Shown here: piece by piece, positions 7,900 to 35,777 of the stretch | Numbering within the stretch: position 1 is the first letter of the stretch | Layout: every line of letters starts with the position of its first letter | Assembly: GCA_031292145.1 (NCBI GenBank) | Contig: JARLHR010000256.1 | Span: 1-36,591, forward strand | Direction of reading: 5' to 3' | DNA from: Clostridium sp. | GTDB taxonomy: Bacteria > Bacillota > Clostridia > Clostridiales > Clostridiaceae | DNA: 36,591 nt | The notes under the pieces: generated by a model | Seen by the model: only the letters and a program-made list of their open reading frames with translations | The model's database searches: none | Told to the model about the DNA's origin: nothing | Translations under genes and position numbers: made by a program

Positions 7900-8084
7900 G
7901 AAATAAGTAACATGTTATTTGCAGCGTTTCATTAGGAATTTAGATGGTGTGTTTCTTGAACGTAAGTTATTCCAAAAGCTTGTTCACAACTCGTTTTTGA
8001 GGCAAGCTTTTTGAGTACAACTTATGTTCTTAGAATCACCCAGCTAAATTCCTTAGAAACCGAAAACAACATGTTACTTATTTC
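7900..8084. repeat. Long-hairpin intergenic repeat, copy A
   Basis: A 185-bp near-palindrome bounded by perfect 17-bp inverted repeats (GAAATAAGTAACATGTT at 7900-7916; its complement at 8068-8084). The arms pair almost throughout, with an inner stem AAGTTATTCCAAAAGCTTG opposite CAAGCTTTTTGAGTACAACT and a loop near 7990. Similarity to copy B (20247-20432) continues through a further 20 bp on the right, up to the stop codon of the HAD gene at 8105. No protein is encoded. It could be a miniature inverted-repeat mobile element, a structured 3' RNA, or both. Confidence 0.75.
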
Positions 8085-8104
8085 AGTAAGCTATTACATA
8101 ATTT

Positions 8105-8971
8105 TTATTTTTGTTCTTCTAGTACTCTATAAATTGCTTTTGCAACTCCTAAATTGTTGTTAGTATCAGTTATGTATTTTGCTATTTCTTTTATTTCAGG
8201 AATGGCATTTCCCATGGCAACCGATTCTGAGAATTCTGTGAACATAGAGTAATCATTAAAACTATCCCCTAATACCAAAACTTCTTCTTTTTGAAATCCC
8301 ATTTTTTGAGCTACTTTTGCAAGGATAATTCCTTTTTGTGCAGTTATATGCGTAACTTCTATATTATCAATGAAAGAAGATGAAACTGCAATATCTTGTA
8401 TTCCACCTATAACTTTTTTCATTTTATTTATGATTTCTATATTATTATGAAATGCCACAAACTTCCTAACTTCTATATCAGAATCAAAAAATTCTTCTAA
8501 ATTTGTTATATATTTAAGTTGTGTAAAATATGGTTGAAGCTTAGCTAATTCTACGGCTTCTTCATATGTTAATTCAGGATCAAATGATAAAGTTCTATAT
8601 GTCATTTCCTTAAGAGCTTCTTCTTTAGTATCTGTAGTAAATATACCTTTATTAGTAAATATTCTCGCAGATACTTTTTCTTTTTGTAATATATTTATAA
8701 TCTTAAATGCAACCTTTTGATCTATATTAATTTCTTCTAATATATTCCCTTTCTCATCTCTATATTCTGCACCATTCATAAGGACACATTGACATCTTAT
8801 ATCATTTTCATCTAAAAGAGGTTTGACAGTATCATACTCTCTCCCTGTTGATATAGCAAAGATTATCCCAGCCCCTTCTGCTTTCTTAATAGCAATTACA
8901 GTTTCTTTATCTATTTTATGTTTTTCATTTAACAATGTCCCATCCATATCTGATGCAATGAGTTTTATCAT
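8105..8971 (-). CDS. Cof-type HAD-IIB family sugar-phosphate phosphatase
   Basis: A cytoplasmic Mg-dependent phosphatase of the Cof/YidA type, which removes phosphate from small metabolites such as sugar phosphates or flavin precursors; the true substrate cannot be read from sequence. All HAD motifs are present: motif I DMDGT with nucleophile Asp8 and acid/base Asp10, motif II at Ser41-Thr42, Lys213 as motif III, and GDSFND (Asp236, Asn239, Asp240) as motif IV. The long insertion between motifs II and III is the C2 cap of subclass IIB. I start at the ATG at 8971, giving 288 residues, because AGGAGATG precedes it at 8980-8987. The upstream in-frame ATG at 9025 has no good ribosome site and would add an unconserved 18-residue tail. 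The stop codon abuts hairpin repeat A. Confidence 0.88.
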   Translation of the reverse strand: MIKLIASDMDGTLLNEKHKIDKETVIAIKKAEGAGIIFAISTGREYDTVKPLLDENDIRCQCVLMNGAEYRDEKGNILEEINIDQKVAFKIINILQKEKVSARIFTNKGIFTTDTKEEALKEMTYRTLSFDPELTYEEAVELAKLQPYFTQLKYITNLEEFFDSDIEVRKFVAFHNNIEIINKMKKVIGGIQDIAVSSSFIDNIEVTHITAQKGIILAKVAQKMGFQKEEVLVLGDSFNDYSMFTEFSESVAMGNAIPEIKEIAKYITDTNNNLGVAKAIYRVLEEQK

Positions 8972-9004
8972 TATGAAATCATCTCCTGTTCTATAGTTAT
9001 ATTC

Positions 9005-9041
9005 AAGAAAATAACTGGTCAGCATGCTAGTCTATTTTCTT
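9005..9041. repeat. Short palindrome related to the repeats at 9108-9329
   Basis: AAGAAAATA at 9005-9013 is matched by TATTTTCTT at 9033-9041, with a central AGCATGCT palindrome. The arm motif GTCTATTTTCTT recurs in the right arm of the 9269-9329 element, and a close variant (GGTCTATTATTTTTTT) occurs in the 9108-9272 element. It lies just upstream of the HAD gene and could be an operator or a minimal repeat copy. Confidence 0.4.
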
Positions 9042-9107
9042 TTATACGCCATATTACTTTTCTCTTAGTATATTATAACAACTATTGGATTTTAGTTAAA
9101 CCTATAA

Positions 9108-9272
9108 TTAGGCACATGAAAAAAAATAATAGACCAAAGATGTGCCAAATATTTTGTGCCAGACAAGGAAGTGAATTCTGCTCATAGTGGGCCTATTAGT
9201 AGAATTTACTGACGCAGTATGGCGCAAAATAGGCAAGCATACTGGTCTATTATTTTTTTGATTGTGCCTTAA
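9108..9272. repeat. Inverted-repeat element, TAAGGCACA family (longest copy)
   Basis: A 165-bp element bounded by TTAGGCACATG plus an A-run and AATAGACCA on the left, and TGGTCTATTA plus a T-run and GATTGTGCCTTAA on the right. Inside, a second stem pairs GTGCCAAATATTTTGTGCC with GGCGCAAAATAGGCA and GAATTCTG with TAGAATTTAC, so the whole element can fold as one long hairpin. It lies between the HAD gene and an L,D-transpeptidase gene. No coding capacity was seen. Shorter relatives are at 7346-7419 and 35369-35432. Confidence 0.7.
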
Positions 9273-9330
9273 GGGATCTTCAATAAAATAACTAATCAGA
9301 TTCTGGTCTATTTTCTTTCAGATCCCTAAT
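9269..9330. repeat. Inverted repeat with AGGGATCT ends, just 3' of an L,D-transpeptidase gene
   Basis: TTAAGGGATCT (9269-9279) pairs with AGATCCCTAAT (9320-9330). Inner parts AAAATAACTAATCAG and TTCTGGTCTATTTT pair partially. The element overlaps the TTAA end of the 9108-9272 element and begins about 10 nt after the stop codon of the gene ending at 9340. It could act as that gene's 3' hairpin, but no clear U-tract follows. Confidence 0.5.
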
Positions 9331-9339
9331 TTTATAACT

Positions 9340-10725
9340 TTACGAGTAGCAAATAATTGGAGTTCCCTCTTCAATATTATTGAAAATTGTATTCGCTAAA
9401 TAATATGGTGCATTCACACAACCATGGGAGCCATTTGTCATATATATCTTTCCTCCAAAAGAACCTCGCCAATTAGCATCATGAATTCCAATTCCTCCAT
9501 TAAAAGGCATCCAAAAATCAACTTTTGTAGAATAGCCTTGTCCCTTTAGTGTTGCATTCTTTTCTTTAAATTTTAAGGTATAAATGCCTACCGGTGTTGA
9601 ATTACCATTGCTTACATTACCAGTAACAACGTCTCCCTCTACTATAAGAGTACCTTTTTTATAATACCATAAGTGTTGTTTGTTTAAATTAATTTCTACA
9701 TAAGTATTTCCTATATCGTTAATATCCCTCGATATTGCTGTTTGCATATATGCCGGTTCTTTTGTTATAGATTGTCCTTCTTTAATAATTTCAATCAAGT
9801 CTTTTGTTTCCTTTGAAATATCAATTATCCAACCATAATCACCGCCACTAACTTTTGTCTTGGTGCCTAATGATGTAGTAAATTCTCTTATTGCACCATC
9901 GGTATTATAAGTATTAGCTAATTTTTTCACATAATCTTTAACCTTTTTCTCATCCAATAAAATTGTATAATTGTCATCAATATTAAGCCAATTGTGTATT
10001 GTTGAACCATCTAATACTTCCTGCTTTTCTCCAAAAGAATAGGTAATTTTTGATGCTGCATATTTATTAAGTATATTTTTAGCATTTATAGTTTCTGTAG
10101 ACTTTGTTGTATATTGGGGATTTTCATAACAACCGGTTGCATTTAAATTTAATGTCTTTTCCCCATTAACAATTGCATTTACAATTTGTTTATATAAACA
10201 ATCTGTATTGAGCTTATTTCCATATACTTCATCAGCAACAACATATCCATTTTCCGTATATTCAAAACTAGGGTTTTTAGGTTCAATGATATTATCATTT
10301 TGAAAACAAGAAAGTTTATTATACTTTTCCTTTAATAAATTTTCATCATATGTTGTAATTTCAGCAGCTTTATATTCCTTTGAAATAAAAAGTGCATAAA
10401 TCCATCCAAATGGGTTCTGGTTATTCTTTAATTCTTCAACTTTTGTGCCTAAATTATATTGTAAATTAATATCAATACCATTAATTTTATCTTTCACATT
10501 ATCTCTTTCTTCTAATTCCAATGAATATCCATTTGCCTCCGCTAATATTTTTGCTTCAGCGTCCTTTACAGATTTTCCCGAAACATTAATACAATTTATA
10601 GATGATCCAAAATAAAAATGATTAATAAAGTATATTGACATGCCTAAATACATACATAAAAGGACACATACAAATATAATTACCCCTTTCCAAAATTTTT
10701 CTCGACCTTTTATTATTCTTTCCAT
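9340..10725 (-). CDS. L,D-transpeptidase (YkuD/ErfK family) with PG-binding_4 domains, membrane-anchored
   Basis: Predicted to form 3-3 cross-links in peptidoglycan, or to attach proteins to it, at the outer face of the membrane. Of 461 residues, a single membrane-spanning segment lies at about 13-32, followed by a long PG_binding_4-type region and a C-terminal YkuD catalytic domain of about 125 residues. The active-site signature SHGCVNAP carries the catalytic Cys436 with His434, and an upstream GIHDANWR matches the family's conserved HD/W motif. The ATG at 10725 is chosen because GGGAGG lies 4 nt before it; an in-frame GTG at 10737 overlaps that ribosome site. A paralogue follows the same plan at 10978-12216, so this is a tandem duplication. 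This copy keeps an extra segment of about 30 residues between the first two blocks that the other has lost. Confidence 0.88.
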   Translation of the reverse strand: MERIIKGREKFWKGVIIFVCVLLCMYLGMSIYFINHFYFGSSINCINVSGKSVKDAEAKILAEANGYSLELEERDNVKDKINGIDINLQYNLGTKVEELKNNQNPFGWIYALFISKEYKAAEITTYDENLLKEKYNKLSCFQNDNIIEPKNPSFEYTENGYVVADEVYGNKLNTDCLYKQIVNAIVNGEKTLNLNATGCYENPQYTTKSTETINAKNILNKYAASKITYSFGEKQEVLDGSTIHNWLNIDDNYTILLDEKKVKDYVKKLANTYNTDGAIREFTTSLGTKTKVSGGDYGWIIDISKETKDLIEIIKEGQSITKEPAYMQTAISRDINDIGNTYVEINLNKQHLWYYKKGTLIVEGDVVTGNVSNGNSTPVGIYTLKFKEKNATLKGQGYSTKVDFWMPFNGGIGIHDANWRGSFGGKIYMTNGSHGCVNAPYYLANTIFNNIEEGTPIICYS

Positions 10726-10907
10726 AATGCCTCCCACTCTGTTCTCTACCCCTATAATACTTGCTTATTATTTTTATTGCTAATATCATAAATACAATCA
10801 TTATCTTTAGTTTAATTTAATCTATTTAAATAGTTATGTACTAACATTTATATTTAGAACATTTTATGATGACGCTCATATTTTGTCTTATAGTATCTTT
10901 TTACCCA

Positions 10908-10950
10908 ACAAAAAAAGAAAGCTCCAATAAAAAATATTGAAACTTTCTTT
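10908..10950 (-). terminator. Rho-independent terminator of the upstream L,D-transpeptidase gene
   Basis: A 16-bp stem with two mismatches (AAAGAAAGCTCCAATA at 10914-10929 with TATTGAAACTTTCTTT at 10935-10950) is followed on the - strand by a run of U encoded at 10908-10916. It starts 27 nt after the stop codon at 10978, so the two transpeptidase genes probably have separate transcripts. Confidence 0.85.
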
Positions 10951-10977
10951 CATGTGTCTTAATAATTTATTCGATTA

Positions 10978-12216
10978 TTAATAATGACAAATAACTGTTT
11001 CCCCTACATAAGTATTATCATATATTTGACTTGCTACACTATAAGGTAAATTTACACATCCATGAGAGCCATTTGTCTTGTAAATTTCGCCTCCAAACTC
11101 TGACCTCCAATTTGCATCATGAAGACCTATGTTTTTGTTAAATGGCATCCAAAAACTAACTGGCGAAGCATAATCAGGGCCAATTAATACAGTATTCTTT
11201 TGCTTAGAATATAAACTGTAAACTCCGTCAGGTGTTGCATTTCCATTACTTTCATTACCTGAAACAATATCGCCATCTACAGCTAAGTATCCATCCTTAT
11301 AGCACCATACATGCTGATTTGTCAAATCAACTTCTACGAAATTTTCTCCGGCATTACTAAAATAACTGGCTGCTGCTGTTTGGGCATATATTGGACCCTT
11401 TGTTATAATTTGTCCACTTTTTATATTATCAATTAATGCTTGTGTCTCTTGATCAACATCAATTACCCAACTATGATTATTACCATCATATCCACCAGAA
11501 ACCGGTATGCTTGTCCCTAATGATGAGGTATAAGTATCTGCCATATTATTCACGTAATTTCTTACCATTTCCTCATAAAGTACAATTTGATAATTTTCAT
11601 CAAGGCTAATCCAATCCTTTATTGTAGAACCATCTAAAACTTGTGTTAAACCTGCAATACAATATGTTATCCTAGAAGATATATATTTATTAGCAGTATT
11701 CCTAGCATTAACAATTTGTGGTGAGCTGTCTAAAACCTCAGGATTTTCATAACAATTAGCTGAGTCTAAATCTAATACAGCATCACCTTTTTTAAGTGCT
11801 GCCACGATGTTTTTATACAAAATATCTCTATTAACTTTATTTCCATATTCCTCTTTTAATATAACATGACTATTGTTTTGATATGTTAATCTAGCATTTT
11901 TGGGTTCAATTGTCTTGGTAGTATCAAGACATGATAATTTATTTACACATTCTTGCAATAGTTTTTCATCAAAAGAAATATTGTTATTATCTTGAGACTT
12001 TAACTGAATATCAGATCCATTAATTTTCTCTTTCACTTCTCCTCTTTCAACTAATGTTAATGCATACGCGTTTATTGAAGTATCTTTATTATTTGCAGTT
12101 TCAGCCGAAACCTTTATTGGACTAACAAAAAACATACAAAATACCATTGTTAATACTCCAAAGATATTTATAATATCTTTTATAACTTTATTTGTCCCTC
12201 TTTTTTCCCTCTCCAT
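10978..12216 (-). CDS. L,D-transpeptidase (YkuD/ErfK family), exported paralogue
   Basis: Paralogue of the neighbouring transpeptidase and predicted to act on the same peptidoglycan substrates outside the cell. It is 412 residues from the chosen ATG. The N-terminus has a hydrophobic stretch ending PIKVSAETA, which looks like a cleavable signal peptide rather than a retained anchor, unlike its neighbour. PG_binding_4-type repeats follow, then the YkuD domain with GLHDANWR and SHGCVNLP; the catalytic Cys is residue 387 and the His 385. The start at 12216 is chosen by homology with the paralogue (MEREK versus MERII), with a G-rich stretch upstream; an in-frame ATG at 12228 is possible. It lacks the segment of about 30 residues, including the NPFGWIYALF block, found in the other copy, and so may differ in binding or location. 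Confidence 0.87.
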   Translation of the reverse strand: MEREKRGTNKVIKDIINIFGVLTMVFCMFFVSPIKVSAETANNKDTSINAYALTLVERGEVKEKINGSDIQLKSQDNNNISFDEKLLQECVNKLSCLDTTKTIEPKNARLTYQNNSHVILKEEYGNKVNRDILYKNIVAALKKGDAVLDLDSANCYENPEVLDSSPQIVNARNTANKYISSRITYCIAGLTQVLDGSTIKDWISLDENYQIVLYEEMVRNYVNNMADTYTSSLGTSIPVSGGYDGNNHSWVIDVDQETQALIDNIKSGQIITKGPIYAQTAAASYFSNAGENFVEVDLTNQHVWCYKDGYLAVDGDIVSGNESNGNATPDGVYSLYSKQKNTVLIGPDYASPVSFWMPFNKNIGLHDANWRSEFGGEIYKTNGSHGCVNLPYSVASQIYDNTYVGETVICHY

Positions 12217-12442
12217 AAAAACCCCCATTGCTCATCCATATTAAGTTTTGATATATACATTAGAAAATCATCTTACCATTTTTAGCTTATTTATCATCAA
12301 TTCCTCCTTTTAAATTTCTATGAAAATAAAAAGATTCCCTAATTGTAATATTTTAACTTATGTTATCTCTTAAATATTATACAATATTTCCCAAACAAAA
12401 TCCAATTAATATATACATTTTAATTTTTTATTGGAATCTAAG
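12217..12442. other. Intergenic stretch, no gene seen
   Basis: AT-rich spacer upstream of the second transpeptidase gene. The only signal seen is a TATAAT on the - strand at 12376-12381, without a convincing -35 box. Confidence 0.5.
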
Positions 12443-12443
12443 C

Positions 12444-12476
12444 AAAAAAGGCATGCATTTTATATATCCATACCTT
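12444..12476 (-). terminator. Rho-independent terminator of cheV
   Basis: On the - strand, AAGGTATG pairs with CATGCCTT (12448-12476), and a U-run encoded by 12444-12449 follows. It lies about 70 nt after the cheV stop codon. Confidence 0.75.
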
Positions 12477-12546
12477 CTATCTAACTTCCTACTATTTAAC
12501 TAATTTGCACCTTCTAATAATATCTACTCTACTAACTACATAAATT

Positions 12547-13449: not shown

Positions 13450-13463
13450 ATTATCTCTACCCC

Positions 13464-13544: not shown

Positions 13545-13557
13545 TTCTTTATAATTG

Positions 13558-13587
13558 ATTATACCATCTATGTACTTAAAATGGTAA
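13558..13587 (-). promoter_or_regulatory. Likely cheV promoter
   Basis: On the - strand: -35 TTACCA (13582-13587), an 18-bp spacer and a perfect -10 TATAAT (13558-13563). The predicted transcript start near 13551 gives a leader of about 100 nt to cheV. It looks like a housekeeping promoter rather than a sigma-D motility promoter. Confidence 0.5.
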
Positions 13588-14808: not shown

Positions 14809-15924
14809 TTAGTACAATGACTTATATATATCATATACAGTTTTTTCGTTTAATTCAACGTAATTATTTGCCATTAAACGACCTTGTTTTGTCATAACAC
14901 TTTCAGTAAAAGCCTTTAATTCGTCCTCTTTTAAACCATACTCTCTTAATTGCTTTTTAGGAATTAACACATTTAATAATTCTTCTATCTGAACATAAAC
15001 TTCATCTTCTTTGCATTCTAAAATTTCTGCTAAAAATCCATTTAATTTTTTGATTTTTCCATCTGGACTTAGACGTTCATAGGTTTTAAATACACCAATA
15101 AACATTTGATAATTTGCTTCACCATGAGGAACATGATAATTGGCACCTAACGGATAACTCATAGCATGTACAGCTCCACATCCTGCATTTCCAAATGCTA
15201 TACCTGCATAATTACTCGCAAGTAAAAAGTCCTTTAATAATGTACTTCTTGCTTCTTCTCCACTTTTTGCAATTTTCTTGTATCCTTTTAAAATCATTTC
15301 CATTGCTTTATAAGAAAACATTTCTGTGTAGCTTGTAGCCTTTGGTGATACGCTTGATTCAATTGCATGTATTAATGCATCAATAGAGCTTGTTGCAAAA
15401 AATTTGAATGGTAAGTCTTTTAGAAGTTCTGGAATCATCACAGCATAATCTGCATATAATTCATTTACTGCAAGGCCCATCTTTGTTTGTCTTGTCTTTA
15501 ATTCAAGAATAGAAATATTAGTTACTTCACTACCTGTTCCGCAAGTGGTAGGGATTAAAATTAATTCCTTATCTTTTATAAATTCTAGCTTGTGATCAAA
15601 CAAATCAAGCACAGGTGAAATTGTTTTTAATGCAAATAACTTTGAAACATCTAGAACACTTCCGCCACCAATTGCAATAACTCTATTATAAGTTATATCT
15701 TTTGTGTCCTTATACATTGCTTCTACCATTTCATCACTAGGTTCACCACTACCATATTTTCTTATGAAAATTACATTGGTATCCAAGTCATACTTTTCTA
15801 AATATGAAACATATGTATGTTCACTTGTTATAACTAAATCTTTTTTTCCTATTTTAAAATTTTCTATAAATTCTTTGCATGTATCAAAAGTATAAATTTC
15901 TGGTTTAACAGACAATTCTTTCAT
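14809..15924 (-). CDS. 4hbD: 4-Hydroxybutyrate dehydrogenase (iron-dependent alcohol dehydrogenase family)
   Basis: NAD(P)-dependent, metal-containing dehydrogenase that most probably interconverts succinate semialdehyde and 4-hydroxybutyrate. From the chosen ATG it is 371 residues, the length I recall for C. kluyveri 4HbD, and it shares long stretches with what I remember of that protein (IYTFDTCKEF, KYGSGEPSDEM, PTTCGTGSEVTN, NYHVPHGEANY). The nucleotide-binding GGGS is at 86-89; metal ligands are Asp182, His186, His253 and His267. I chose 15924 over the ATG at 15942 because GAGGGGG lies 9 nt before it and the upstream ATG overlaps that ribosome site. No succinyl-CoA reductase or CoA transferase gene is next to it, so the partner steps must be elsewhere. 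A LysR gene follows in the probable operon, and acetolactate synthase lies upstream. Confidence 0.85.
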   Translation of the reverse strand: MKELSVKPEIYTFDTCKEFIENFKIGKKDLVITSEHTYVSYLEKYDLDTNVIFIRKYGSGEPSDEMVEAMYKDTKDITYNRVIAIGGGSVLDVSKLFALKTISPVLDLFDHKLEFIKDKELILIPTTCGTGSEVTNISILELKTRQTKMGLAVNELYADYAVMIPELLKDLPFKFFATSSIDALIHAIESSVSPKATSYTEMFSYKAMEMILKGYKKIAKSGEEARSTLLKDFLLASNYAGIAFGNAGCGAVHAMSYPLGANYHVPHGEANYQMFIGVFKTYERLSPDGKIKKLNGFLAEILECKEDEVYVQIEELLNVLIPKKQLREYGLKEDELKAFTESVMTKQGRLMANNYVELNEKTVYDIYKSLY

Positions 15925-15993
15925 AAGATATAGCCCCCTCATTTCTTGCTTAACAATATATTAATGAAATAATTTACTTATTATTTTCTTTCA

Positions 15994-16046
15994 CATATAG
16001 ATATCCAACACATATTCTAGACTTATGAGCTAACTTACCGAAATCA
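15994..16046. repeat. Short dispersed repeat, pair of 7770-7821
   Basis: Shares ATATAGATATC, CTAGACTTATGA and ACC-AAATCA blocks with 7770-7821. Here it runs directly into hairpin element C, so it may be the element's outer left border. Confidence 0.4.
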
Positions 16047-16284
16047 GAAATATTTTTGTTTCGCAGGACTATGAAAATGTCGCTGAAGGTTCTAAGTTGG
16101 AGGTTGTGCCCACTTTAGCTTGCTCCCACTTTCAGTGTGACAAGCTAAAGTGGAACAACCATAGAGGAAACTCGACTCACTTCGTTCGCTGAGTAAGCGA
16201 TTCACACCAAATCATAGATTTGGGTTCACTGCTTAAGAACCTTGGACAGCTCATTTTCAAATGCCTGCTGCACAAAAATATTTC
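16047..16284. repeat. Long-hairpin intergenic repeat, copy C (branched form)
   Basis: An outer stem pairs GAAATATTTTTGT and GTTCT (16047-16096) with AGAAC and ACAAAAATATTTC (16232-16284). Inside lie three hairpins: GGTTGTGCCCACTTTAGCTTG (shown here as 16102-16122) with 16141-16160; ACTCA/TGAGT at 16175-16194; and CCAAATC-ATA-GATTTGG at 16207-16223. The first inner stem has the same pattern as the inner stem of copies A, B and E but in reverse orientation. It lies between the alsS stop codon and the 4hbD start. No protein is encoded; 16285-16376 shows nothing else. Confidence 0.65.
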
Positions 16285-16376
16285 TAATTTCTGGTGCAGA
16301 TGTATATTAAAATTCTAGTAAATATGAGGATATATTACACTAATAAATCTAGTTCTTAAATTGTTTATCTATATAC

Positions 16377-18047
16377 CTAAAGATTTTCATATACTTCCTT
16401 TAAGTGTTTTGTTAATTTTACATTTTCACCATAATCTACTTGACAATCAATAATTACTGGTACATTTTGTTTAAACGCCTCTTCTAAAGCTGGAACTAAA
16501 TCTTCTGCATTCTCTACACGATATCCCTTTGCATACATGCTTTCAGCAAATTTTACAAAATCAGGATTAGTAAAATCTATATAACAGCTCTTTCCATATT
16601 GGTCTTCTTGTTTCCATTTTATTAATCCATAATTACTATCATTAAATATTAAAACTACAATTGGAGTTCCTATACGTAATGCTGTTTCTAACTCTTGATT
16701 ATTCATCATAAAGCCACCATCACCAACAATTGCTAATACCTTTTTATCTGGATTAATTAATTTTGCTGCAACTGCACCCGGAAGTCCTATACCCATTGAA
16801 GCAAATCCATTTGAAATTATGCAAGTATTAGGTTCATAACAGTTATAATGTCTAGCTATCCACATTTTATGTGCGCCAACATCTGAGATAAGAATGTCCT
16901 CTCTATTCATAACTTTTCTTACATCATTTAAAATTTTCTGTGGTTTCATCGGAAAAGAATTGTCATTTTCATAACTTTCATGTTCTTCTACCATCTTTTC
17001 CTTAATTTCTAACGCTTTTAATGGTTCATCTTTTCTCGACGTCCTTCTCATTATATTATAAAGGGCATCCGAAATATCTCCAACTACTTCTACTATTGGT
17101 TGATAAAGCTTATTAATATGAGCTGGACTTTGATCAATATGAACAATTTGAATATCTCCATTTACATTCCATTTTGCTGGAGCATATTCTACAATATCAT
17201 ATCCAATCGTTATTACTAAATCGGCATCTTCAATGATTCTATTTACATAATCCTTTTGAGGTATACCAATTGTCCACATTGCATATTTATTATCAAATGG
17301 AATAATTCCCTTTGCCATCATTGTATTAATTACTGGAATTTTTAATTTATTAGCAAATTCTGTAACCGCTTTTGCAGCCTTATTACGGATAGCTCCACTT
17401 CCTGCTAAAATAACTGGATTTTTTGCTTTGAAGATTTCACCTGCTGCTTCTTCAATAGTTGTTAAATCTGCATGTTCTTTAGGTTGTATTTTCTTTTGCA
17501 AAGGCTTTTCTCCTAAGCTTACTGGCATTTTAGCAATATTCACAGGTAAATCTATGTGACATGCCCCTTGTTTTTCACTTTCAGCATATTTAAAAGCAAG
17601 CCTTACAATTTCATTTACAGTATCAGGGCGAACGATTTGTTTGCTCCTCTTAGTAATTGGTTCAAACATTTTACAAATATCTAAAAATTGATGTGATGTA
17701 ATATGCATTCTTTCAGTACCAACTTGTCCAGTAATTGCAACAACTGGAGCACCGTCACTATCAGCATCTGCAACACCAGTTACTAGATTAGTTGCACCAG
17801 GCCCTAGAGTTGAAAGACAAACTCCAGCTTTTCCTGTTAATCTTCCATAAACATCTGCCATAAATGCAGCTCCTTGTTCATGACGGGTTGTAATAAATTT
17901 AATATTTGAATCTAGAATTGCATTCATTACCTCAAGATTTTCTTCACCCGGAATACCAAAAATATATTCTACTTCTTCAGCTTCTAAACATTTTACTAAC
18001 ATCTGTGCTGTATTTAATTGAACTTCTTGTTTTTTTTCTGTACCCAT
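16377..18047 (-). CDS. alsS: Acetolactate synthase, catabolic type
   Basis: ThDP- and Mg-dependent enzyme that condenses two pyruvates to 2-acetolactate with CO2 release, in the cytoplasm. At 556 residues in a single chain it fits the catabolic AlsS group. The N-terminal Pyr domain carries the catalytic Glu57 in RHEQGAAFMADVYGR. The C-terminal PP domain carries the ThDP motif GDGG from residue 442 to NDSNYG at 468-473, followed by GLIKWKQ. No regulatory small subunit gene and no acetolactate decarboxylase gene is adjacent, so the product may feed acetoin by spontaneous or distant steps, or branched-chain amino acids. The ribosome site is modest (AAGG). Upstream lie a promoter and two palindromes that may be operators; downstream lies hairpin element C. 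Confidence 0.92.
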   Translation of the reverse strand: MGTEKKQEVQLNTAQMLVKCLEAEEVEYIFGIPGEENLEVMNAILDSNIKFITTRHEQGAAFMADVYGRLTGKAGVCLSTLGPGATNLVTGVADADSDGAPVVAITGQVGTERMHITSHQFLDICKMFEPITKRSKQIVRPDTVNEIVRLAFKYAESEKQGACHIDLPVNIAKMPVSLGEKPLQKKIQPKEHADLTTIEEAAGEIFKAKNPVILAGSGAIRNKAAKAVTEFANKLKIPVINTMMAKGIIPFDNKYAMWTIGIPQKDYVNRIIEDADLVITIGYDIVEYAPAKWNVNGDIQIVHIDQSPAHINKLYQPIVEVVGDISDALYNIMRRTSRKDEPLKALEIKEKMVEEHESYENDNSFPMKPQKILNDVRKVMNREDILISDVGAHKMWIARHYNCYEPNTCIISNGFASMGIGLPGAVAAKLINPDKKVLAIVGDGGFMMNNQELETALRIGTPIVVLIFNDSNYGLIKWKQEDQYGKSCYIDFTNPDFVKFAESMYAKGYRVENAEDLVPALEEAFKQNVPVIIDCQVDYGENVKLTKHLKEVYENL

Positions 18048-20108: not shown

Positions 20109-20151
20109 AAATCCATAACAATGCTTCAAATCCTTGCATTGTTATGGATTT
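20109..20151 (-). terminator. Strong rho-independent terminator
   Basis: A perfect 16-bp stem (AAATCCATAACAATGC at 20109-20124 with its complement at 20136-20151) is followed on the - strand by TTTTATATTTAT. It ends transcription from the telA direction beyond hairpin element B. Between here and the kinase start at 19966 I saw nothing else. Confidence 0.8.
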
Positions 20152-20246: not shown

Positions 20247-20432
20247 GAAATAAGTAACATGTTGTGTGGAGTGTTTCATTGGAATTTTGATGGTAATGAT
20301 TCTTGACAAGAAGTTGTTCCAAAATGCTTGTTCAACGCTTGTCGTTGAGGCAAGCATTTTGGGTACAACTTCTAGTCTTAGAATCATCCATCTAAATTCC
20401 TGGAAACCGGAACACAATATGTTACTTATTTC
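20247..20432. repeat. Long-hairpin intergenic repeat, copy B
   Basis: A 186-bp near-palindrome. The outer ends GAAATAAGTAACATGTTGTG (20247-20266) and ACACAATATGTTACTTATTTC (20412-20432) pair with one mismatch. Next, GGAATTTTGATGG pairs with CCATCTAAATTCC, and AAGTTGTTCCAAAATGCTTG pairs with CAAGCATTTTGGGTACAACT around a loop near 20336-20344. A 20-bp right extension, similar to that of copy A, runs to the telA stop codon at 20453. This is the best-preserved copy. Confidence 0.8.
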
Positions 20433-20452: not shown

Positions 20453-21598
20453 TTATTGTCTAAGGCTTAAAAGCTTATTTTTTAATTGTTCTTCAATATT
20501 TTGTAATTCTGCTTCAGCAGCTTTACGTTTTTGACGTCCTTCTGTTTGTATGCGAAGCACTTCATCTAGGGTTGAAATTAATGATTCATTCGTGTTACGA
20601 AGAGTCTCAATATCAACAATTCCTCTTTCAGATTCCTTAGCTGTTTCTATCGTTGACATTTTAAGTGTTTCTGCATTCTTGCGTAAAAGTTCGTTAGTCA
20701 TATTAGTTACTTCATTTTGAACTTTAGCTGCATTATTAGAATGAGCAACCCCAAGAGCCAATACGATTTGACTTTTCCAAAGGGGAATGGTATTTACAAT
20801 AGTCGATTGTATTTTCTCTGACATTAAAGAATCATTATTTTGAACTAAACGAATTTGAGGAGCCATTTGAAGTGAAATCATTCTAGTTAACTCTAAATCA
20901 TGAATTTTTTTCTCAAAGCGATTGCAAAGAGCTACAAAATCATTTGTTGCTTGTGCATCCTCAGGAAGCCCACTAATCTTTGCTTTTTCTACTAAAGCTG
21001 GAAGCTCTTCTTTTTCTAATTTTGAAAGTTTCTTTTTCCCTGCTAATATGTACATAGACAGTTCTTTAAAATATACTTTGTTTATTTCATACATTTTATC
21101 CAACATAGCAACATCTTTTAAAAGTTGTATCTGATGTGTTTCAAGCATATTACAAATTTTATTGATATTGCCTTCAACTTTTTCATATTTTGCTTTCATT
21201 TGAGAAATTTTCTCTGTAGTTTTCTTAAAAAACCCCAAAAATCCTTTCTTCTCTTCTGGATTTTCGAAATTCTTTAACTCACATACTACATTAGAGAGCA
21301 TTTCTCCAACTTCGCCTAAATCTTTAGTTTTTACATTATTTAGAGCATTTTCAGAAAAGTCTGCTATTTTCTTCTGAGCACCTACTCCATATTGTAGAAT
21401 CGAATTTGAGTTAGTTACATCAATTTTCTCTACAAATTCATCTACCATCTTTTTTTCTTCTTCTGTTAAATAGCTGTCATCAAAAATTTCTGCTTGCTTA
21501 GTTTCCTCAGCTACTTTAGTAACAGAAGCCTCTTCTTGGAACAGCTCAAAGGTTAAGCTTGGGGCAACATTTATATCTTCTTTAAATGGATCGTTCAC
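20453..21598 (-). CDS. TelA-like toxic anion resistance family protein
   Basis: A 381-residue, largely alpha-helical soluble protein of the TelA family, named for tellurite resistance; its molecular action is not known, and roles in cell-envelope stress have been suggested. Family features include the EEEKKMVDEFVEKIDVTNSN region near the N-terminus, the FFKKTTEKI segment and the long helical C-terminal half. I start at the GTG at 21598 because AGGAGG lies 9 nt before it, inside the longer frame; the ATG at 21616 has no ribosome site of its own. The gene is 62 nt downstream of an XpaC-like gene on the same strand, a pairing common in Firmicutes, so they are likely one operon and one functional unit. 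Confidence 0.85.
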   Translation of the reverse strand: MNDPFKEDINVAPSLTFELFQEEASVTKVAEETKQAEIFDDSYLTEEEKKMVDEFVEKIDVTNSNSILQYGVGAQKKIADFSENALNNVKTKDLGEVGEMLSNVVCELKNFENPEEKKGFLGFFKKTTEKISQMKAKYEKVEGNINKICNMLETHQIQLLKDVAMLDKMYEINKVYFKELSMYILAGKKKLSKLEKEELPALVEKAKISGLPEDAQATNDFVALCNRFEKKIHDLELTRMISLQMAPQIRLVQNNDSLMSEKIQSTIVNTIPLWKSQIVLALGVAHSNNAAKVQNEVTNMTNELLRKNAETLKMSTIETAKESERGIVDIETLRNTNESLISTLDEVLRIQTEGRQKRKAAEAELQNIEEQLKNKLLSLRQ

Positions 21599-21624
21599 TT
21601 TTCTATTCCTCCTCATGTAATCTT

Positions 21625-29767: not shown

Positions 29768-29781
29768 AATACACCTCAAAA

Positions 29782-32337
29782 TCAGATTATTTTTCTCCCC
29801 TCATTGACTGCTTCTACTCTATTTTTGACGCCAAGTTTAGAATATATATTTATAATGTGAGTTTTTACAGTTGAGATAGAAATAAAGAGCTTCTCTCCTA
29901 TTTCCTTATTGCTTAATCCATCTATTAAAGCCTGAAGAACTTCCATTTCTCTTGGGCTTAAAACTTCATTTTCATCTTTTATACCTACTAAATCACAAAG
30001 CTTTTTCACAAATTCTTTATTATCTGGATCTTCTAATAATTGCACCTTAAACTTTTGAATTATTTCTTTTAGATATTTTCTGTTTTTATAATAAGGAAAT
30101 AATATATCTTCATCTCTAGAATAAAATATTGCTTCCTTTATAATATTTATACATTCTCTTGTATTATCAGATTCAAGTTTATTTAATAATATCACTTTCC
30201 AAACTAATGAATATACAAGTAAATATCCTATTCCATTCTTTCTGCATGCAAATGCAATTTTATTAAACTCATTTAAGCTCTCTTCGTATTGTCCTTTCTC
30301 GAAAAGAACCATTCCATACGTTATCCCTAAAATATCAGAATAAGGTGATTTTCCATATTTCTTTTTATAAATCTCCATAAACTCATCAAACTCTTCTGTT
30401 TTTATCCTATTCTCAAAAAATAGCAATCTAATTTTAAGCGCTAACATTTGAATATATGCGTAATTATCTTTATTATCCTTATTAATATGATTCAGCAATT
30501 CCTCACATTCGTCAATATTACCTTGAATATATTTAACTTCTGCTAAATTATAATTAATGCCTACCTCTAATGTACTAAAAGCAGCTTTACCTTTATATTC
30601 CTTAATCATTTTCTGCGCCTCTAATAATAGTTCTTCTGCCTCTTTATCTCTAAGCATCTTTATATAAACTCCCGGAAGTCCCACTGTTCTAAAAATAGTG
30701 AAACAGGATTTATAATTTTTCGTGCTAAATTGCTCAATCAATTCTGTATAACCATTTAAACACTCATTTAACTTTCCCATATTCTCTAATAAAGAAACTT
30801 TATTATATTTATACATTATATCCACATAACTATTATTCAATTCCGTATTAATTTTTTTAATTAACTCCATCATTTCAAATGATTTTGTATATTCACCTAT
30901 AAAACCTAGCGCCCATGAAGCTAAAATATAGTAAATTATTTTAGTAAGTATATTCAAACTATCATCAATTTCCTTTGGAAAATCAAAGTAACACTCTTCC
31001 ACATAAGAATTATTTAATATAAGCCCAAGCAATTTGAGTGAATTTCTAACCTTGTTACCCTTATCGTAATCTATAGAATTAATTATTATGCTGCATCTTT
31101 CATAATCTAAACTTAAATAATTAGAAAATCCAGCTATAAAAACCAAATCTGTACTTTTATTATAATATTCCAACGGAAATTCATTTAAGATTTTAGTTGA
31201 TACAATATTATGAGCATTCTTTTCTATTATCCTCAGAGCCTCATTATATCTATTGTAATTCACAAAAATTCTTAGCGCCTCATCATAATTTTTATCTTTT
31301 ATTAATGATGCCGCAAGTTTATCTATAATTTCATTCTTAACACTTGCTTCATATTTATCAAAAAGTTCTATAAGATACTGTCTTAAAATATTATGATATC
31401 TAAATATCTTCTTGTCTTCATCTATTGTAATTATAAGCATATTTTTTCCTATCAAATTATCTATTATTTCAAAACCATCTTTATTATCTATATTTTTATA
31501 AATACTTGGATTTACATAACTTAAAGGTGAAGTTTTAATTAAAAAGTCTATTTCTCCTTGTGATAAACTGTTTATAATTTCATTATTCATATAGTCAATG
31601 AACAATTTATTTCCTTTTGGTATATTTTTTATAGTTTTTTTACTCCCCACCACTGTTAATAAAAGCTTAATTGCTCCTATCCAGCCTTCAGAAATTAAAA
31701 ATATTTCTTTAATCACATCGTCATCAATATTCTTTTTAGTAGTATTTTTTATAAACTCTTCTGTCTCTTCTAAAGTTAAATTAAAATCTTCTGAATTTAT
31801 ATCAACTATTCCACCCTTCATAAGAATATTTCCTAAATAAAGCTTAATATCATACCTTGAAATTAATACAAAATGTATATTATCTGAGGAATTTGATATA
31901 AAATATTCAATAGATTCTAGAAGAAATTTATCTTCTAGATAATGAAAATCATCAAATACTATAATTAATTCTTCTTCATTTATAAGTTCATTAATTAAAG
32001 ATGATATTAACTCAAAAATATCTTCTCTCTTTACCAATGGATTTATCATATCAATATAAAAGTTTAAGTCTTCTATATTACCTTTTAATCCATGTAAAAC
32101 ATAAGTCCAAAAATAAGATAAATCATCGCTGTTTTCATCTAAAGAAAGCCACATGCATTTATCCTTTTCTCCAATATAATTAGAAATAAGAGTACTTTTG
32201 CCAACAGCAGCACCGCCTTTTACTACTGTCAATTTATTTTCCAAAATACCATCAAGCTTATCTTGTATATCTTTATTTCTATGGAGCATATTTTCACTTT
32301 TGGGTCTTATTAATCTTGTATAAAGAATATTTTTCAT
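29782..32337 (-). CDS. MalT-like LuxR-family ATP-dependent transcriptional regulator
   Basis: An 851-residue signal-transduction ATPase (STAND type). The P-loop KGGAAVGKST is at 40-49, Walker B LIIVFDDFHY at about 124-133, and a winged-helix region follows. A long helical TPR-like repeat region from about residue 340 to 780 probably binds an inducer or partner. The C-terminal LuxR-type helix-turn-helix (792-851; LSPREMEVLQALIDG and SISTVKTHIINIYSKLGV) binds DNA. ATP-dependent oligomerisation upon inducer binding is known for MalT; the inducer here is unknown. No maltose genes are nearby. The downstream DUF434-type gene and the ABC-2 exporter operon upstream are candidate targets. An AGGGTGAT precedes the ATG. 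Confidence 0.88.
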   Translation of the reverse strand: MKNILYTRLIRPKSENMLHRNKDIQDKLDGILENKLTVVKGGAAVGKSTLISNYIGEKDKCMWLSLDENSDDLSYFWTYVLHGLKGNIEDLNFYIDMINPLVKREDIFELISSLINELINEEELIIVFDDFHYLEDKFLLESIEYFISNSSDNIHFVLISRYDIKLYLGNILMKGGIVDINSEDFNLTLEETEEFIKNTTKKNIDDDVIKEIFLISEGWIGAIKLLLTVVGSKKTIKNIPKGNKLFIDYMNNEIINSLSQGEIDFLIKTSPLSYVNPSIYKNIDNKDGFEIIDNLIGKNMLIITIDEDKKIFRYHNILRQYLIELFDKYEASVKNEIIDKLAASLIKDKNYDEALRIFVNYNRYNEALRIIEKNAHNIVSTKILNEFPLEYYNKSTDLVFIAGFSNYLSLDYERCSIIINSIDYDKGNKVRNSLKLLGLILNNSYVEECYFDFPKEIDDSLNILTKIIYYILASWALGFIGEYTKSFEMMELIKKINTELNNSYVDIMYKYNKVSLLENMGKLNECLNGYTELIEQFSTKNYKSCFTIFRTVGLPGVYIKMLRDKEAEELLLEAQKMIKEYKGKAAFSTLEVGINYNLAEVKYIQGNIDECEELLNHINKDNKDNYAYIQMLALKIRLLFFENRIKTEEFDEFMEIYKKKYGKSPYSDILGITYGMVLFEKGQYEESLNEFNKIAFACRKNGIGYLLVYSLVWKVILLNKLESDNTRECINIIKEAIFYSRDEDILFPYYKNRKYLKEIIQKFKVQLLEDPDNKEFVKKLCDLVGIKDENEVLSPREMEVLQALIDGLSNKEIGEKLFISISTVKTHIINIYSKLGVKNRVEAVNEGRKII

Positions 32338-32473
32338 TCTATCACCCTAATAACTTATTTCGCTGTATATATTTTACCATATTACGGATAAACCACCCAC
32401 AAATTAAATCTATTCCTTCAAATATTTTCTTAATCAGAAATATAAGATTTATTTCCCTTTTATCACTACACTA

Positions 32474-32531
32474 GAAATAAGTAACCTGGTATGTGAAGTG
32501 TTTCATTAGAACATAACATGCTACTTATTTC
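32474..32531. repeat. Long-hairpin repeat, minimal copy D (interior deleted)
   Basis: A 58-bp element keeps only the ends: GAAATAAGTAACCTGGTATG at 32474, then AAGTGTTTCATTAGAA, then AACATGCTACTTATTTC ending at 32531. The left 40 bp align with copies A and B up to TTTCATT-GAA, and the right end matches their terminal repeat. The whole inner stem is missing. It lies 39 nt after the stop codon at 32571. The flanking CTAG and GCTG sequences also resemble those of the other copies. Confidence 0.7.
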
Positions 32532-32570
32532 AGCGAGCTGCCACATAAATCTAGATTACACCTTGTTTAA

Positions 32571-33530
32571 CTATGCAAAATTATACTTTCTAATCTTATA
32601 TTTAATTATTAGATATGCAAAAATTATCATTATTAAAGAGACTAAAATAACATTACCCATATCTGCATAATTTATGCCATTACCTTTTTCTAAAGAAATT
32701 GTAAAGTCTAAAATGTGCTTTTGAGGCAATATATTTGCCACTATGCTTATTAAATTATTATCAGATATAGTGAAAAAGCTTCCTGCAATCAAGGTAGTTA
32801 TTATATTAATCATAACACCTAACATACTTGCACTCTCCTCTTCTTTTACAATTGAAGAAATTAATAATCCAAAAGCTGAAGCTAATAACGATAAAGCTAA
32901 CACTATAAAAGCTAACTGGAGCGCAGTTACCCTTGTTTCTAGATTAAGCACTTCCTTTACTAGTATTGTTACTAGCACTGTTGGAACAAAAATCATAATA
33001 AATACTGAAATAAAATGACTTAATACATATTGTTCATAAGATATATTTGCACTTATCACTCTCTTTGCTATACCTTTTTTCTCATCAAAGAAGAATCTAT
33101 AAAGCATTACTCCTAGTAGTATTAGAAACATACTTATATACCCAACTATATTTGCAGTTACTCCTCTTTTTTCACCATCTTTCACAGCGACATTTTCCCC
33201 ATTGACCATTTTTTCCAACTTACTTTTAAAATCATTCCCTTTTATAGTGTCTATTTGAGCTTTTCCATTTTCAAAAGATATAACTGCGTCATACTTGTTT
33301 TTTACTAAATCTGAAAGAGGCACTTTATTTTCAAGCTTTATAATGTTAACCTCATCACTATTAAAATAAACCTTATAATTACCTACAATCCCAATATTAG
33401 CTTTTTCAGCAAAGCTGCTTGAAAAATAAATTGCAGCCGCGATAACTACTGGAGTTATTATCAAAGGCATTATCAAATAGGTTTTACTATTTATCATTCT
33501 ATATAAAATTCCTTTTATTACATTTATCAT
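32571..33530 (-). CDS. ABC-2 type transporter permease
   Basis: A 319-residue integral membrane subunit of an ABC exporter. An N-terminal membrane helix (about 18-38) is followed by an extracytoplasmic region of about 100 residues. Five further membrane segments then occupy the C-terminal half (for example ANIVGYISMFLILLGVML and ISVFIMIFVPTVLVTILV). This is the YhgE/NatB-like ABC-2 layout. It is the last gene of a three-gene operon behind a second permease and the ATPase. GGGAG lies 7 nt before the ATG. The substrate is unknown; such systems often export antimicrobial peptides, drugs or sodium. Minimal repeat D lies downstream. Confidence 0.87.
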   Translation of the reverse strand: MINVIKGILYRMINSKTYLIMPLIITPVVIAAAIYFSSSFAEKANIGIVGNYKVYFNSDEVNIIKLENKVPLSDLVKNKYDAVISFENGKAQIDTIKGNDFKSKLEKMVNGENVAVKDGEKRGVTANIVGYISMFLILLGVMLYRFFFDEKKGIAKRVISANISYEQYVLSHFISVFIMIFVPTVLVTILVKEVLNLETRVTALQLAFIVLALSLLASAFGLLISSIVKEEESASMLGVMINIITTLIAGSFFTISDNNLISIVANILPQKHILDFTISLEKGNGINYADMGNVILVSLIMIIFAYLIIKYKIRKYNFA

Positions 33531-33546
33531 CTTTATTCTCCCTTCT

Positions 33547-33571
33547 CATCATTAATGAATAGTTAATGATG
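33547..33571 (-). other. Intercistronic hairpin between the two permease genes
   Basis: CATCATTAA (33547-33555) pairs perfectly with TTAATGATG (33563-33571) around a 7-nt loop. No U-run follows, so it is more likely an RNA-stability or processing element that tunes the two permease genes than a terminator. Confidence 0.45.
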
Positions 33572-33584
33572 AATAATTATGATT

Positions 33585-34328
33585 CTATATATAATCTTCC
33601 GGCTTATAATTAAGATGCATAACAATTAAACTTACTATCGATAACAAAATCAAAGAAAAAATTATAAGTGTATAATTTTGAAAATTGTTATCATATATAA
33701 CACTAAAGCTCAAATCCAATATCCATTTTATAGGTGATAAATTTGCTATCTTGCTCACCACTTTCCCTAAGCTGTCTACAGGAAAAAACATTCCTGAAAG
33801 CAATGCAAAAACAGTTGCTATATTAGAAAGAATCATGTTAGTCAGCTCTTCTTCCTTTATAATCACACAAACTGCACCACCAATTGCCACTGTAAATAAT
33901 AAAAATGCCCAAAACAATCCAAGCACATATATAAAGTTTTCCCCACCAAAATTAACAAGCCCAAAGTAATTCATTAATGTCATATTTATAGAAACAGTAC
34001 TTATCATAAATAAATATGAACTTAGTATTTTAGACATATAAATTAATACTTTTGAAACTGGTGCATAAGCTATTCTAATATTTCCTTGCCTTAATTTCTT
34101 CTCTAGAAAAGTATTTGGTGTTATCGTAATTGATGTAATTATTATATATATCATCATAGTTACGCCATAATAATCATATGATGTAACTCCTTCTCCACCA
34201 TAAAGACTAGAAAAAATAAAACCAAACAAACCAACTAATAGCCATGGATAAAAAACACAGGCTGTTACAACAACTGGAGTTGTAATTAGATTTCTAAAAT
34301 CTTGTTTAATAAGTTTCCATAATATCAT
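33585..34328 (-). CDS. ABC-2 type transporter permease
   Basis: A 247-residue, six-helix membrane subunit with a short cytoplasmic N-terminus (MILWKLIKQDFRNLITTP), the typical start of ABC-2 permeases. Helices include VVTACVFYPWLLVGLFGFIF and the C-terminal LIIFSLILLSIVSLIVMHL. Its start is 12 nt after the ATPase stop with GTGAGGGAAA as ribosome site, so translation is probably coupled. It has no large outside domain, unlike the second permease, so the exporter is likely a heterodimer of two different permeases plus an ATPase dimer. Confidence 0.87.
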   Translation of the reverse strand: MILWKLIKQDFRNLITTPVVVTACVFYPWLLVGLFGFIFSSLYGGEGVTSYDYYGVTMMIYIIITSITITPNTFLEKKLRQGNIRIAYAPVSKVLIYMSKILSSYLFMISTVSINMTLMNYFGLVNFGGENFIYVLGLFWAFLLFTVAIGGAVCVIIKEEELTNMILSNIATVFALLSGMFFPVDSLGKVVSKIANLSPIKWILDLSFSVIYDNNFQNYTLIIFSLILLSIVSLIVMHLNYKPEDYI

Positions 34329-34340
34329 TTTCCCTCACCT

Positions 34341-35285
34341 CTAATCTCTTAATTTTCTTCCTGTAAGCTTTAGAAATACCATTTCTAAGTTGCCTTCTTC
34401 GCTTGTTATATGGCTTATCTTTATTTTTCTCTCAATTAAGCTTAAAATAATCTTATCCAAATTTTCTATTTCCTTAATTGTGGTTATTCTAAAACAATTA
34501 TCTATAAGCTCTACTTTTTGAATTCCTTCTACTTCATATAAATAATCATATTTAAAGTTATCATTCTTGATAGGATCTATAGATATTTTATAAGTTCTTG
34601 TATTTCTATGGCTTTCCATAAGCTCTGGTATTGTTCCTTCTGCTATCTTATTACCTTTATCCATTATTACTACTCTATCTGCTATTTCTTCAACTTCTTC
34701 CATATAATGAGTTGTATAAATTATAGTTGTTCCATTATCTCTTAAATTCTTAATTGATTCTAATATGTGATTCCTAGATTGAGGGTCAATCCCAACAGTA
34801 GGTTCGTCTAATATTAATATCTTAGGCTTATGAGCTATTGCACAAGCAATATTAAGTCTTCGTTTCATTCCTCCAGAAAAAGTTATTGGTTTGCTATCTT
34901 TTTTATCCTCTAGTCCTACCATTTTTAATGCTTCTAATACAGCATTTCTTAGATTCTTTCCACTTAATCCATATAAAGATGTGAAAAATTCAACATTTTT
35001 ATATGCTGGTATCTCTTCAAATATGGCAAGTTCTTGGGGTACTATGCCAAGCTGTGACTTAATCCATTTTTTATTATCCTTTATATCGGTACCGAAAAAT
35101 TTTATTTCCCCTTCATCATGCTTTAATATAGTTGAAAGTATATTTATTGTAGTGCTCTTTCCTGCACCATTAGGACCTAAAAAGCCTAATATCTCTCCAT
35201 TATATAAATTAAAACTTAATCCATTGACAGCCTTATTTTCCTTATAATACTTTTTTAAATCTTTTACTTCTAATATTGATTCCAT
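34341..35285 (-). CDS. ABC-2 exporter ATP-binding protein (DrrA-like)
   Basis: A 314-residue ATPase that powers the two permeases encoded downstream. Walker A GPNGAGKST is at 37-45, the Q-loop follows at VPQE, the signature FSGGM is at 136-140, Walker B LILDE at 157-161 and the switch His193 in TTHYMEE. The C-terminal extension of about 90 residues after the ATPase core is typical of DrrA-type proteins. I start at the ATG at 35285 because AGAGG lies 8 nt upstream; the frame open to 35294 begins at a GTG overlapping that site. A GAAA-loop palindrome and an inverted-repeat element lie upstream and may control the operon. Confidence 0.93.
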   Translation of the reverse strand: MESILEVKDLKKYYKENKAVNGLSFNLYNGEILGFLGPNGAGKSTTINILSTILKHDEGEIKFFGTDIKDNKKWIKSQLGIVPQELAIFEEIPAYKNVEFFTSLYGLSGKNLRNAVLEALKMVGLEDKKDSKPITFSGGMKRRLNIACAIAHKPKILILDEPTVGIDPQSRNHILESIKNLRDNGTTIIYTTHYMEEVEEIADRVVIMDKGNKIAEGTIPELMESHRNTRTYKISIDPIKNDNFKYDYLYEVEGIQKVELIDNCFRITTIKEIENLDKIILSLIERKIKISHITSEEGNLEMVFLKLTGRKLRD

Positions 35286-35331
35286 AATCATCACCTCTGA
35301 GATTATCGTACTCTCTAGACCTACGCATTGT

Positions 35332-35351
35332 AATCAACCGAAAGGTTGATT
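35332..35351. promoter_or_regulatory. Perfect palindrome upstream of the ABC operon
   Basis: AATCAACC-GAAA-GGTTGATT forms an 8-bp perfect stem; as + strand RNA it would have a GNRA tetraloop. It lies about 47-66 bp before the ATPase start codon, a suitable place for an operator. The -35/-10 boxes around it are not clear. Confidence 0.45.
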
Positions 35352-35368
35352 TCTATAGATGAACAACA

Positions 35369-35432
35369 TAAGGCACGATCAAAAAAATAACAAACAAGCA
35401 TACTTGTCTATTATTTTTTTGATCGCACCTTA
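35369..35432. repeat. Inverted-repeat element, TAAGGCACA family (short copy)
   Basis: A 64-bp near-perfect hairpin. TAAGGCACGATC plus an A-run and AATAACAAACAAG pair with CTTGTCTATTA plus a T-run and GATCGCACCTTA around a 4-nt loop. The ends and the AATAGAC segment match the 9108-9272 copy, but the interior of that copy is absent. Confidence 0.65.
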
Positions 35433-35587
35433 ATAAGCTTACATGTGATTATATTAACTAAGTAACTAATTATCTATATACCCTAAGTACTATCTGAAAT
35501 ACCATATTAAAACTATTTATATACAACTTAAAGACAAAAAGAGCAGTTCAGCTTTGTACAGGAAAGTTTGAAATATAGACAATATTA

Positions 35588-35777
35588 GAAAGGTAGCGAA
35601 CTCTTTTGTGCAGTGTTGCATTTAGAATATTGCGGTAGGTATTTCGTCATTAGAAGTTGTTCCAAAATGCTAGTTCAAAGTTTACCTTTGAGGCTAGCAT
35701 TTTGGGCACAACTTCTAATGTTAGAAATCCACCGCAATATTCTATAGCAACCGAAACAACAGAATCCACTACCTTTC
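35588..35777. repeat. Long-hairpin intergenic repeat, copy E (divergent outer arms)
   Basis: A 190-bp near-palindrome with ends GAAAGGTAG (35588) and CTACCTTTC (35777). Middle arms TAGAATATTGCGGT and ACCGCAATATTCTA pair. The inner stem AGAAGTTGTTCCAAAATGCT pairs with AGCATTTTGGGCACAACTTC and is nearly identical to copy B, while the outer arms belong to a different subfamily. The right flank TTTCGGTTA continues as in copy B, and the argS stop codon follows at 35791. Positions 35433-35587 show nothing else. Confidence 0.75.

Follow-up and report, generated by a model that had tools for sequence, protein, structure and literature searches.

In the passages of PMC3049150 drawn on here, RUP of Streptococcus pneumoniae is a 107 bp repeat with ends like those of IS630-Spn1, ERIC acts on mRNA according to its orientation, the transcripts of Correia elements (CE) are targets of RNase III, and mobilization by ISNpu3-like elements has been proposed for Nezha, a miniature inverted-repeat transposable element (MITE) of cyanobacteria. 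The passages of PMC3446304 describe bcr1-bcr18 of Bacillus cereus as MITE-like repeats, about half of which are transcribed in untranslated regions or operons, and report that bcr3 correlates with a longer mRNA half-life. The present analysis concerns a family of long hairpins in a 36,591-nt stretch of a Clostridium sp. genome (GCA_031292145.1, contig JARLHR010000256.1, positions 1 to 36,591 of the forward strand; the window). By the features tested, these hairpins form the inner part of non-autonomous elements (MITEs) of the IS630 (Tc1/mariner) type, a superfamily in Clostridium. Taken as a whole, the history that we consider probable is insertion at TA driven by IS630, followed by orientation-selective retention as a transcribed 3'-end hairpin.

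Terminal repeats, TA insertion and a probable IS630 partner

Three hairpins of about 186 nt each, at 7900-8084, 20247-20432 and 35588-35777 of the window, are mutually homologous, and their RNA folding z-scores are -11.2, -13.8 and -13.6, respectively, with none of 200 shuffles matching any of them. An earlier note on this DNA had counted four copies; the three just named stood, whereas the fourth, at 16047, which folds too (z -10.6), turned out to be a member of a diverged family, contained in a larger, complete 378-nt element (15996-16373) that has the opposite orientation and an extra loop module. The earlier note had also overlooked a remnant at 32474-32531, homologous to the window hairpins, in which the outer arms are kept and most of the hairpin is deleted, as well as the conserved flanks on both sides of the hairpin, which in the best-matching copies extend for about 90 nt on the left (left arm) and about 45 nt on the right (right arm).

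The ends are common to the family. Exact matches to the 13-mer TATAGATATCCAA number 67 in the window's own genome (G000, a draft, 95.9% complete), as compared with one for its reversed control. Placed as inverted repeats at the ends, the 13-mer delimits full elements of about 283-315 nt, or up to 400 nt with loop modules, that carry no gene. The fetched sequence contains 43 end-to-end stretches, three of which are alternative ends of one place, and 32 of the 43 fall in the length classes 283-291, 300-301 and 311-315 nt.

Insertion at TA was observed in the genomes of two relatives, G002 and G013, which share long blocks of 95-97% identity. The empty site ...CTTACA-TA-CTTTATG... was seen in G013 at one orthologous place, where G002 has the same flanks with a 312-nt element and TA on both sides; such a TA duplication indicates the IS630 (Tc1/mariner) group. 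At a second place, two abutting inverted elements in G002 correspond to one damaged element in G013, and elsewhere the two genomes differ in the family that stands behind a given gene, in the deletion of the hairpin from a copy, or in the presence of a 64-nt loop module.

A possible source of the transposase is present in one of these relatives. G002 carries a 1200-bp IS630-family insertion sequence that begins with TATAGATATCCAA, ends with TTTGTTTATCTATA, is abutted on both sides by hairpin elements, and has the motif ACTTAT in common with the arms of these elements. Its gene consists of two overlapping frames which, searched separately, match NCBIfam IS630, one at 80 bits, short of the cut-off of 100, and the other at 109.6 bits, above it, and which also match Pfam HTH_33/HTH_29 and DDE_3. 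In another relative, G003, three DDE_3 fragments lie at contig ends, each 117 nt from a matching end, which is the same distance as in the G002 insertion sequence. DDE_3 matches occur in 14 of the 68 genomes of the genus, 10 of them among the 19 element-bearing genomes and 4 among the 49 others (P 1.7e-4), with matching ends seen in G002 and G003. The hairpin elements thus share with IS630-type MITEs the terminal inverted repeats, the TA duplication and the short, non-coding, multicopy nature; an autonomous partner, which is not a strict requirement, was not found in the draft of the window's own genome. As suggested by the ends and the duplication, the IS630 transposase would act in trans, moving the elements to many TA sites.

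In the window's own genome, a first query gave at least 40 distinct places (the best 40 of 144 candidates were scored) and a second at least 50 matches (the best 40 of 113 were scored), with copies up to 96% identical. Further copies in related clostridial genomes, the test on which the earlier note had staked the family, were found in 18 of the 68 genomes of the genus by DNA search, while, across 225 genomes of the order, a covariance model of the inner 106 positions was positive in 19, which all belong to the same one of 56 genera. In ten G000 contigs (C22, C46, C90, C153, C154, C169, C177, C250, C272 and C276), a terminal repeat is located no more than about 310 nt from the contig start, so that the repeats probably break this assembly.

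Siting and orientation at gene ends

The elements are sited at gene ends in an orientation-specific manner. Among the 30 best copies, 28 have their right-hand gene on the opposite strand, and in 27 the stop codon of that gene is 17-73 nt away from the hairpin. Over 430 kb of sampled genome (contigs chosen for their hits), the 3' end points toward the element in 37 of 48 right neighbours and in 26 of 49 left neighbours. Seven genomes yielded 67 oriented hairpins with a right neighbour; a 3' end is faced by 56 of them, and by 49 at 80 nt or less, the distance cut-offs having been chosen after the data were seen. The right end has a convergent stop no more than 80 nt away in 27 of 38 elements in the own genome and in 18 of 25 in other genomes, where duplicated operons were collapsed and four transaldolase-hairpin copies dropped; the total is 45 of 63, as compared with the 8% expected from random placement and orientation in the same spacers. 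Stop contacts over 153 hits, a set that counts a few elements twice where the loop module splits them (window 16040-16291 is one such case), number 79 for the right end and 16 for the left (P 3e-11), and the orientation ratio in gaps between co-directional genes is 60 to 26 (P 3e-4). Many right arms end exactly at the stop codon, and some reading frames enter the element and terminate inside it.

In the window, four elements follow this rule. The features are:

7819..8104, + strand: Element A, with the left terminal repeat near 7819-7831 (TATGGATATCCAA) and the hairpin at 7900-8084; the right arm is truncated at the stop codon of the gene 8105-9025 (-)
15996..16373, - strand: Element B, 378 nt, both terminal repeats present, hairpin about 16040-16291 with a module of small hairpins in its loop; the left end is 3 nt from the stop of the gene 16377-18047 (-) and the right end is toward the start of the gene 14809-15942 (-)
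20109..20151, - strand: intrinsic-terminator-like hairpin of the telA-like gene, beyond Element E
20247..20432, + strand: Element E, a 186-nt hairpin, with the stop of the telA-like gene 20453-21616 (-) 20 nt away
20313..20321, + strand: conserved 5' side of the inner stem of Element E, GTTGTTCCA
20360..20369, + strand: conserved 3' side of the inner stem of Element E, TGGGTACAAC
20378..20383, + strand: TTAGAA of Element E, whose unpaired TA is the same in all 45 aligned hairpins (next section) and is adjoined by covarying pairs
32474..32531, + strand: deletion remnant, outer arms only, with the stop of the gene 32571-33530 (-) 39 nt away
35588..35777, + strand: Element F, a second-family hairpin, with the stop of the argS-like gene 35791-36591 (-) 13 nt away

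In the nearest named relatives, the gene with its stop next to Element E (telA-like) has 82-89% identity, and nine of the first ten relatives listed are labelled Clostridium. Other long hairpins stand directly behind the same gene in two named relatives and in one more (L063, L064 and L076, compared by eye), the palindrome scan having been done by BLAST. Orthologous ends of this gene, examined in 13 genomes of the genus and at 27 named loci, gave no clean empty junction, the relatives being too diverged or having other hairpins.

Two other accounts of the siting were discarded. Insertion into terminators was unsupported, as a first scan found few terminators just beyond the elements. A cassette of gene plus hairpin was rejected because the five near-identical transaldolase-hairpin copies belong to an ordinary duplicated transaldolase-transketolase operon. 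This operon is near-identical in three fetched G002 stretches (L194, L195 and L196) and in two of G013 (L198 and L199), and each copy has a hairpin between the two genes.

According to the explanation that we favor, copies with the right end at the 3' end of a gene would be preferentially retained, and those in the opposite orientation lost more often. The retained hairpin would then be transcribed as the 3' untranslated end of the gene, where it could be harmless or useful, through 3'-end protection, processing or termination. A canonical terminator beyond the hairpin was detected at 19 of 69 element-bearing gene ends and at 220 of 384 controls, a comparison to be read with the caution that the detector was home-made and that some element-bearing gaps are shorter than the controls, which lowers their count.

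This caution is one of several points that count against the explanation as a whole, from IS630-driven insertion to selective retention. Element B violates the orientation rule. Only one clean filled/empty site was seen, further candidates being not clean, and there the insertion lies before a gene start and not behind a stop codon. A search for the DDE_3 domain (PF13358) detected no IS630 transposase in G000, with its draft completeness given above, although copies there reach 96% identity. Furthermore, the 3' bias of two-ended elements (28:17) falls short of that of damaged ones (80:22; P 0.045), with no difference between the two groups in how near the stop they lie (P 0.48). Finally, the copies inspected have no clear T run after the hairpin, which may make a plain intrinsic terminator unlikely. 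The clean insertion before a gene start and the weaker bias in complete elements fit later retention better than targeted insertion.

The most serious competitor, which in our judgement falls just short of being probable, is that the elements are plain parasitic MITEs, for which the place behind a stop is the least harmful spot, so that the hairpin is useless to the host and its structure is kept for transposition alone. The features of a MITE are all there (TA duplication, terminal repeats, IS630 ends), and many copies are hairpin-deleted or damaged, 106 of the 153 hits lacking one or both ends. In addition, the enrichment of pneumococcal repeats between convergent genes is read as tolerance in the passages of PMC3049150. 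Tolerance alone, however, leaves the orientation unexplained, both in the stop contacts (79 right against 16 left) and between co-directional genes (60 against 26).

Selective retention can also be carried further, to a mobile gene end, an idea that we regard as possible and hold tentatively. Here the cargo of the element, which would spread by IS630 transposition, would be the selected 3'-untranslated hairpin itself, which would replace ordinary terminators via one-way retention behind stops, and hundreds of genes per genome may share a transposon-derived mRNA tail recognized through the asymmetric core.

The fold, its conserved core and the strand

The alignment comprised 45 hairpins and 203 columns, oriented and picked for clear pairing, a selection that inflates the paired percentage and not the covariation controls. 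Six of 74 hairpins were dropped because their orientation could not be assigned; the alignment omits 5 of the 49 clean-length hairpins (four transaldolase paralogues and one near-copy) and adds the window hairpin 7900-8084. Changes on both sides occur in 45 of the 60 consensus pairs. Paired cells amount to 96.6%, as compared with 76.4% after shuffling and at most 43.3% with slid partners, and the covariation score is 0.561, against 0.179 for shuffled and at most 0.110 for slid controls. The arm sequences vary widely from family to family, while hardly any change is seen at the GAAA...TTTC ends of the stem, in the inner stem GTTGTTCCA/TGGGTRCAAC or at the unpaired TA of TTAGAA.

These data bear out what the earlier note had read from four copies, namely that an asymmetric inner stem is kept while the arms change together, and that the arms covary around the kept asymmetries, which they do far above both controls. 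Its further claim, that the structure is under selection or recognized by a protein, holds for one part of the hairpin: the retention of the mismatched core argues for selection acting on the folded strand. Covariation alone is no proof of RNA, since templated correction of one arm from the other in a DNA palindrome could contribute part of it. The conserved core may be the part recognized in the folded strand by the transposase, a host nuclease or another protein.

The same correction could be pressed into a full explanation, in which one arm of the palindrome is copied from the other during replication and the arms change jointly without selection. Every arm is indeed palindromic DNA, and hairpin-driven deletion was seen between close genomes (P8). 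On balance we find this unlikely, because correction would remove the mismatched core and the internal loop, both of which are nearly invariant across families with differing arms.

The importance of one strand was assessed in 49 hairpins with strand-neutral pairing, where the element + strand has 179 G-T and 50 A-C pairs. Of these 179, 88 come from four fixed pair columns; counted by column the figures are 43 and 24, and among rare cases 36 and 29. Furthermore, the + strand folds more strongly in 24 of 30, 30 of 39 and 26 of 29 copies. The earlier note had proposed that certain positions near the loop can pair as wobble on one strand only. This was upheld at a few fixed positions; elsewhere the G-T excess over A-C is weak, and so is the indication that the strand matters outside the core. 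As Element B is reversed, its wobble strand is the - strand of the window.

Covariation, the G-T excess and the stronger folding would all suit a structured regulatory or small RNA, made from the element + strand, antisense to the neighbouring gene and carried on the transposon. We nevertheless rate such an RNA as quite improbable. The G-T excess shrinks once the four fixed columns are considered, the transcript of the neighbouring gene bears the opposite strand, and the hairpins have no Rfam match at the gathering score. At a lax threshold, the best Rfam match was a plant microRNA precursor family with 23.8 bits (E 0.0044), its gathering score being 180.

The loop module of small hairpins (GAGGAAACTCGACT...CCAAATC...GATTTGG) occurs in elements of different families (L190, L191, L192, window 16143-16240 and the L198/G013 stretches), and it is present or absent between close genomes.

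A long palindrome can be unstable when replicated in one of its two orientations, but it is extremely unlikely that replication direction, or another mobility system (Y1/REPIN-like or reverse transcriptase), set the orientation of the elements, given that within one G002 stretch, presumably one replication arm, orientation tracks the gene strand (11:1 against 0:3), that Y1 is represented in the genome by a single match, to a PF01797 fragment of 126 bp that contains two stops, that no element or terminal-repeat pair was found at 12 Y1/reverse-transcriptase loci, and that the elements have a TA duplication and IS630 ends. A repeat of the REPIN/RAYT type was set aside, as only this broken fragment represents the Y1 (RAYT) transposase. 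Integron attC sites, considered for the siting at stop codons, were dropped because the elements have IS630 ends and lie scattered next to housekeeping-type genes.

Other repeats and comparison with described systems

Positions 9110-9269 and 35369-35432 of the window belong to a second, unrelated MITE-like repeat family, with ends like AGGCACA.../...TGTGCCT. An insert similar to this repeat, flanked by repeated TAAG, is present in G002 (about C1:4833826-4834024) and missing from G013. Two further G002 inserts of about 110-120 nt are also absent in G013 (A2 35601-35722 and 38365-38477), and we take them to resemble the right ends of IS200/IS605-type elements. On the - strand, the gene at 1385-7294 encodes a secreted-type protein of 1969 aa with GH43, CBM, Ig-like and choline-binding domains, and has an internal 300-nt repeat at 5249 and 5723.

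Should the orientation rule be a sign of function, a selfish element would now be a common means by which industrial solvent-producing clostridia end or protect their messages, and the old question of whether intergenic repeats serve the host would become directly testable. Even as a parasite, the element accounts for repeat-broken assemblies, rapid turnover of spacers and hairpin polymorphism among close strains.

The earlier note knew of no described family that these hairpins match. That remains so for Rfam families at the gathering score; the kind of element is nonetheless a known one, the non-autonomous element of IS630 type. The literature on clostridial repeats, MITEs and IS630, covered through open-access sources and mostly as listings, yielded no description of the Clostridium hairpin family, which is not proof of absence. 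Nezha, as far as its description goes, is similar in pairing a MITE with an insertion sequence. We know of no covarying hairpin superfamily for Nezha.

For effects on mRNA, the nearest described cases would be the ERIC, Correia and bcr repeats. The bcr repeats are likewise MITE-like, although the passages of PMC3446304 contain no stop-codon or orientation rule and no common sequence has been shown. ERIC and Correia elements resemble the Clostridium elements as small mobile palindromes in transcribed spacers, a likeness of function only; they differ in being shorter, in occurring in other bacteria, and in having no IS630-matched partner in the passages of PMC3049150.

The nearest described case overall appears to be RUP, judging from its description in the same passages, which is also a short non-coding repeat, enriched between convergent genes, with ends that match an IS630-type insertion sequence thought to act in trans. 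Set beside that description, the Clostridium elements are about three times longer, have an interior hairpin of about 186 nt with an asymmetric core, and are sited at stop codons in one orientation. Thus, the fixed-length hairpin with its covarying frame, together with the orientation rule at stop codons, makes the Clostridium family distinct from the known IS630-type MITEs.

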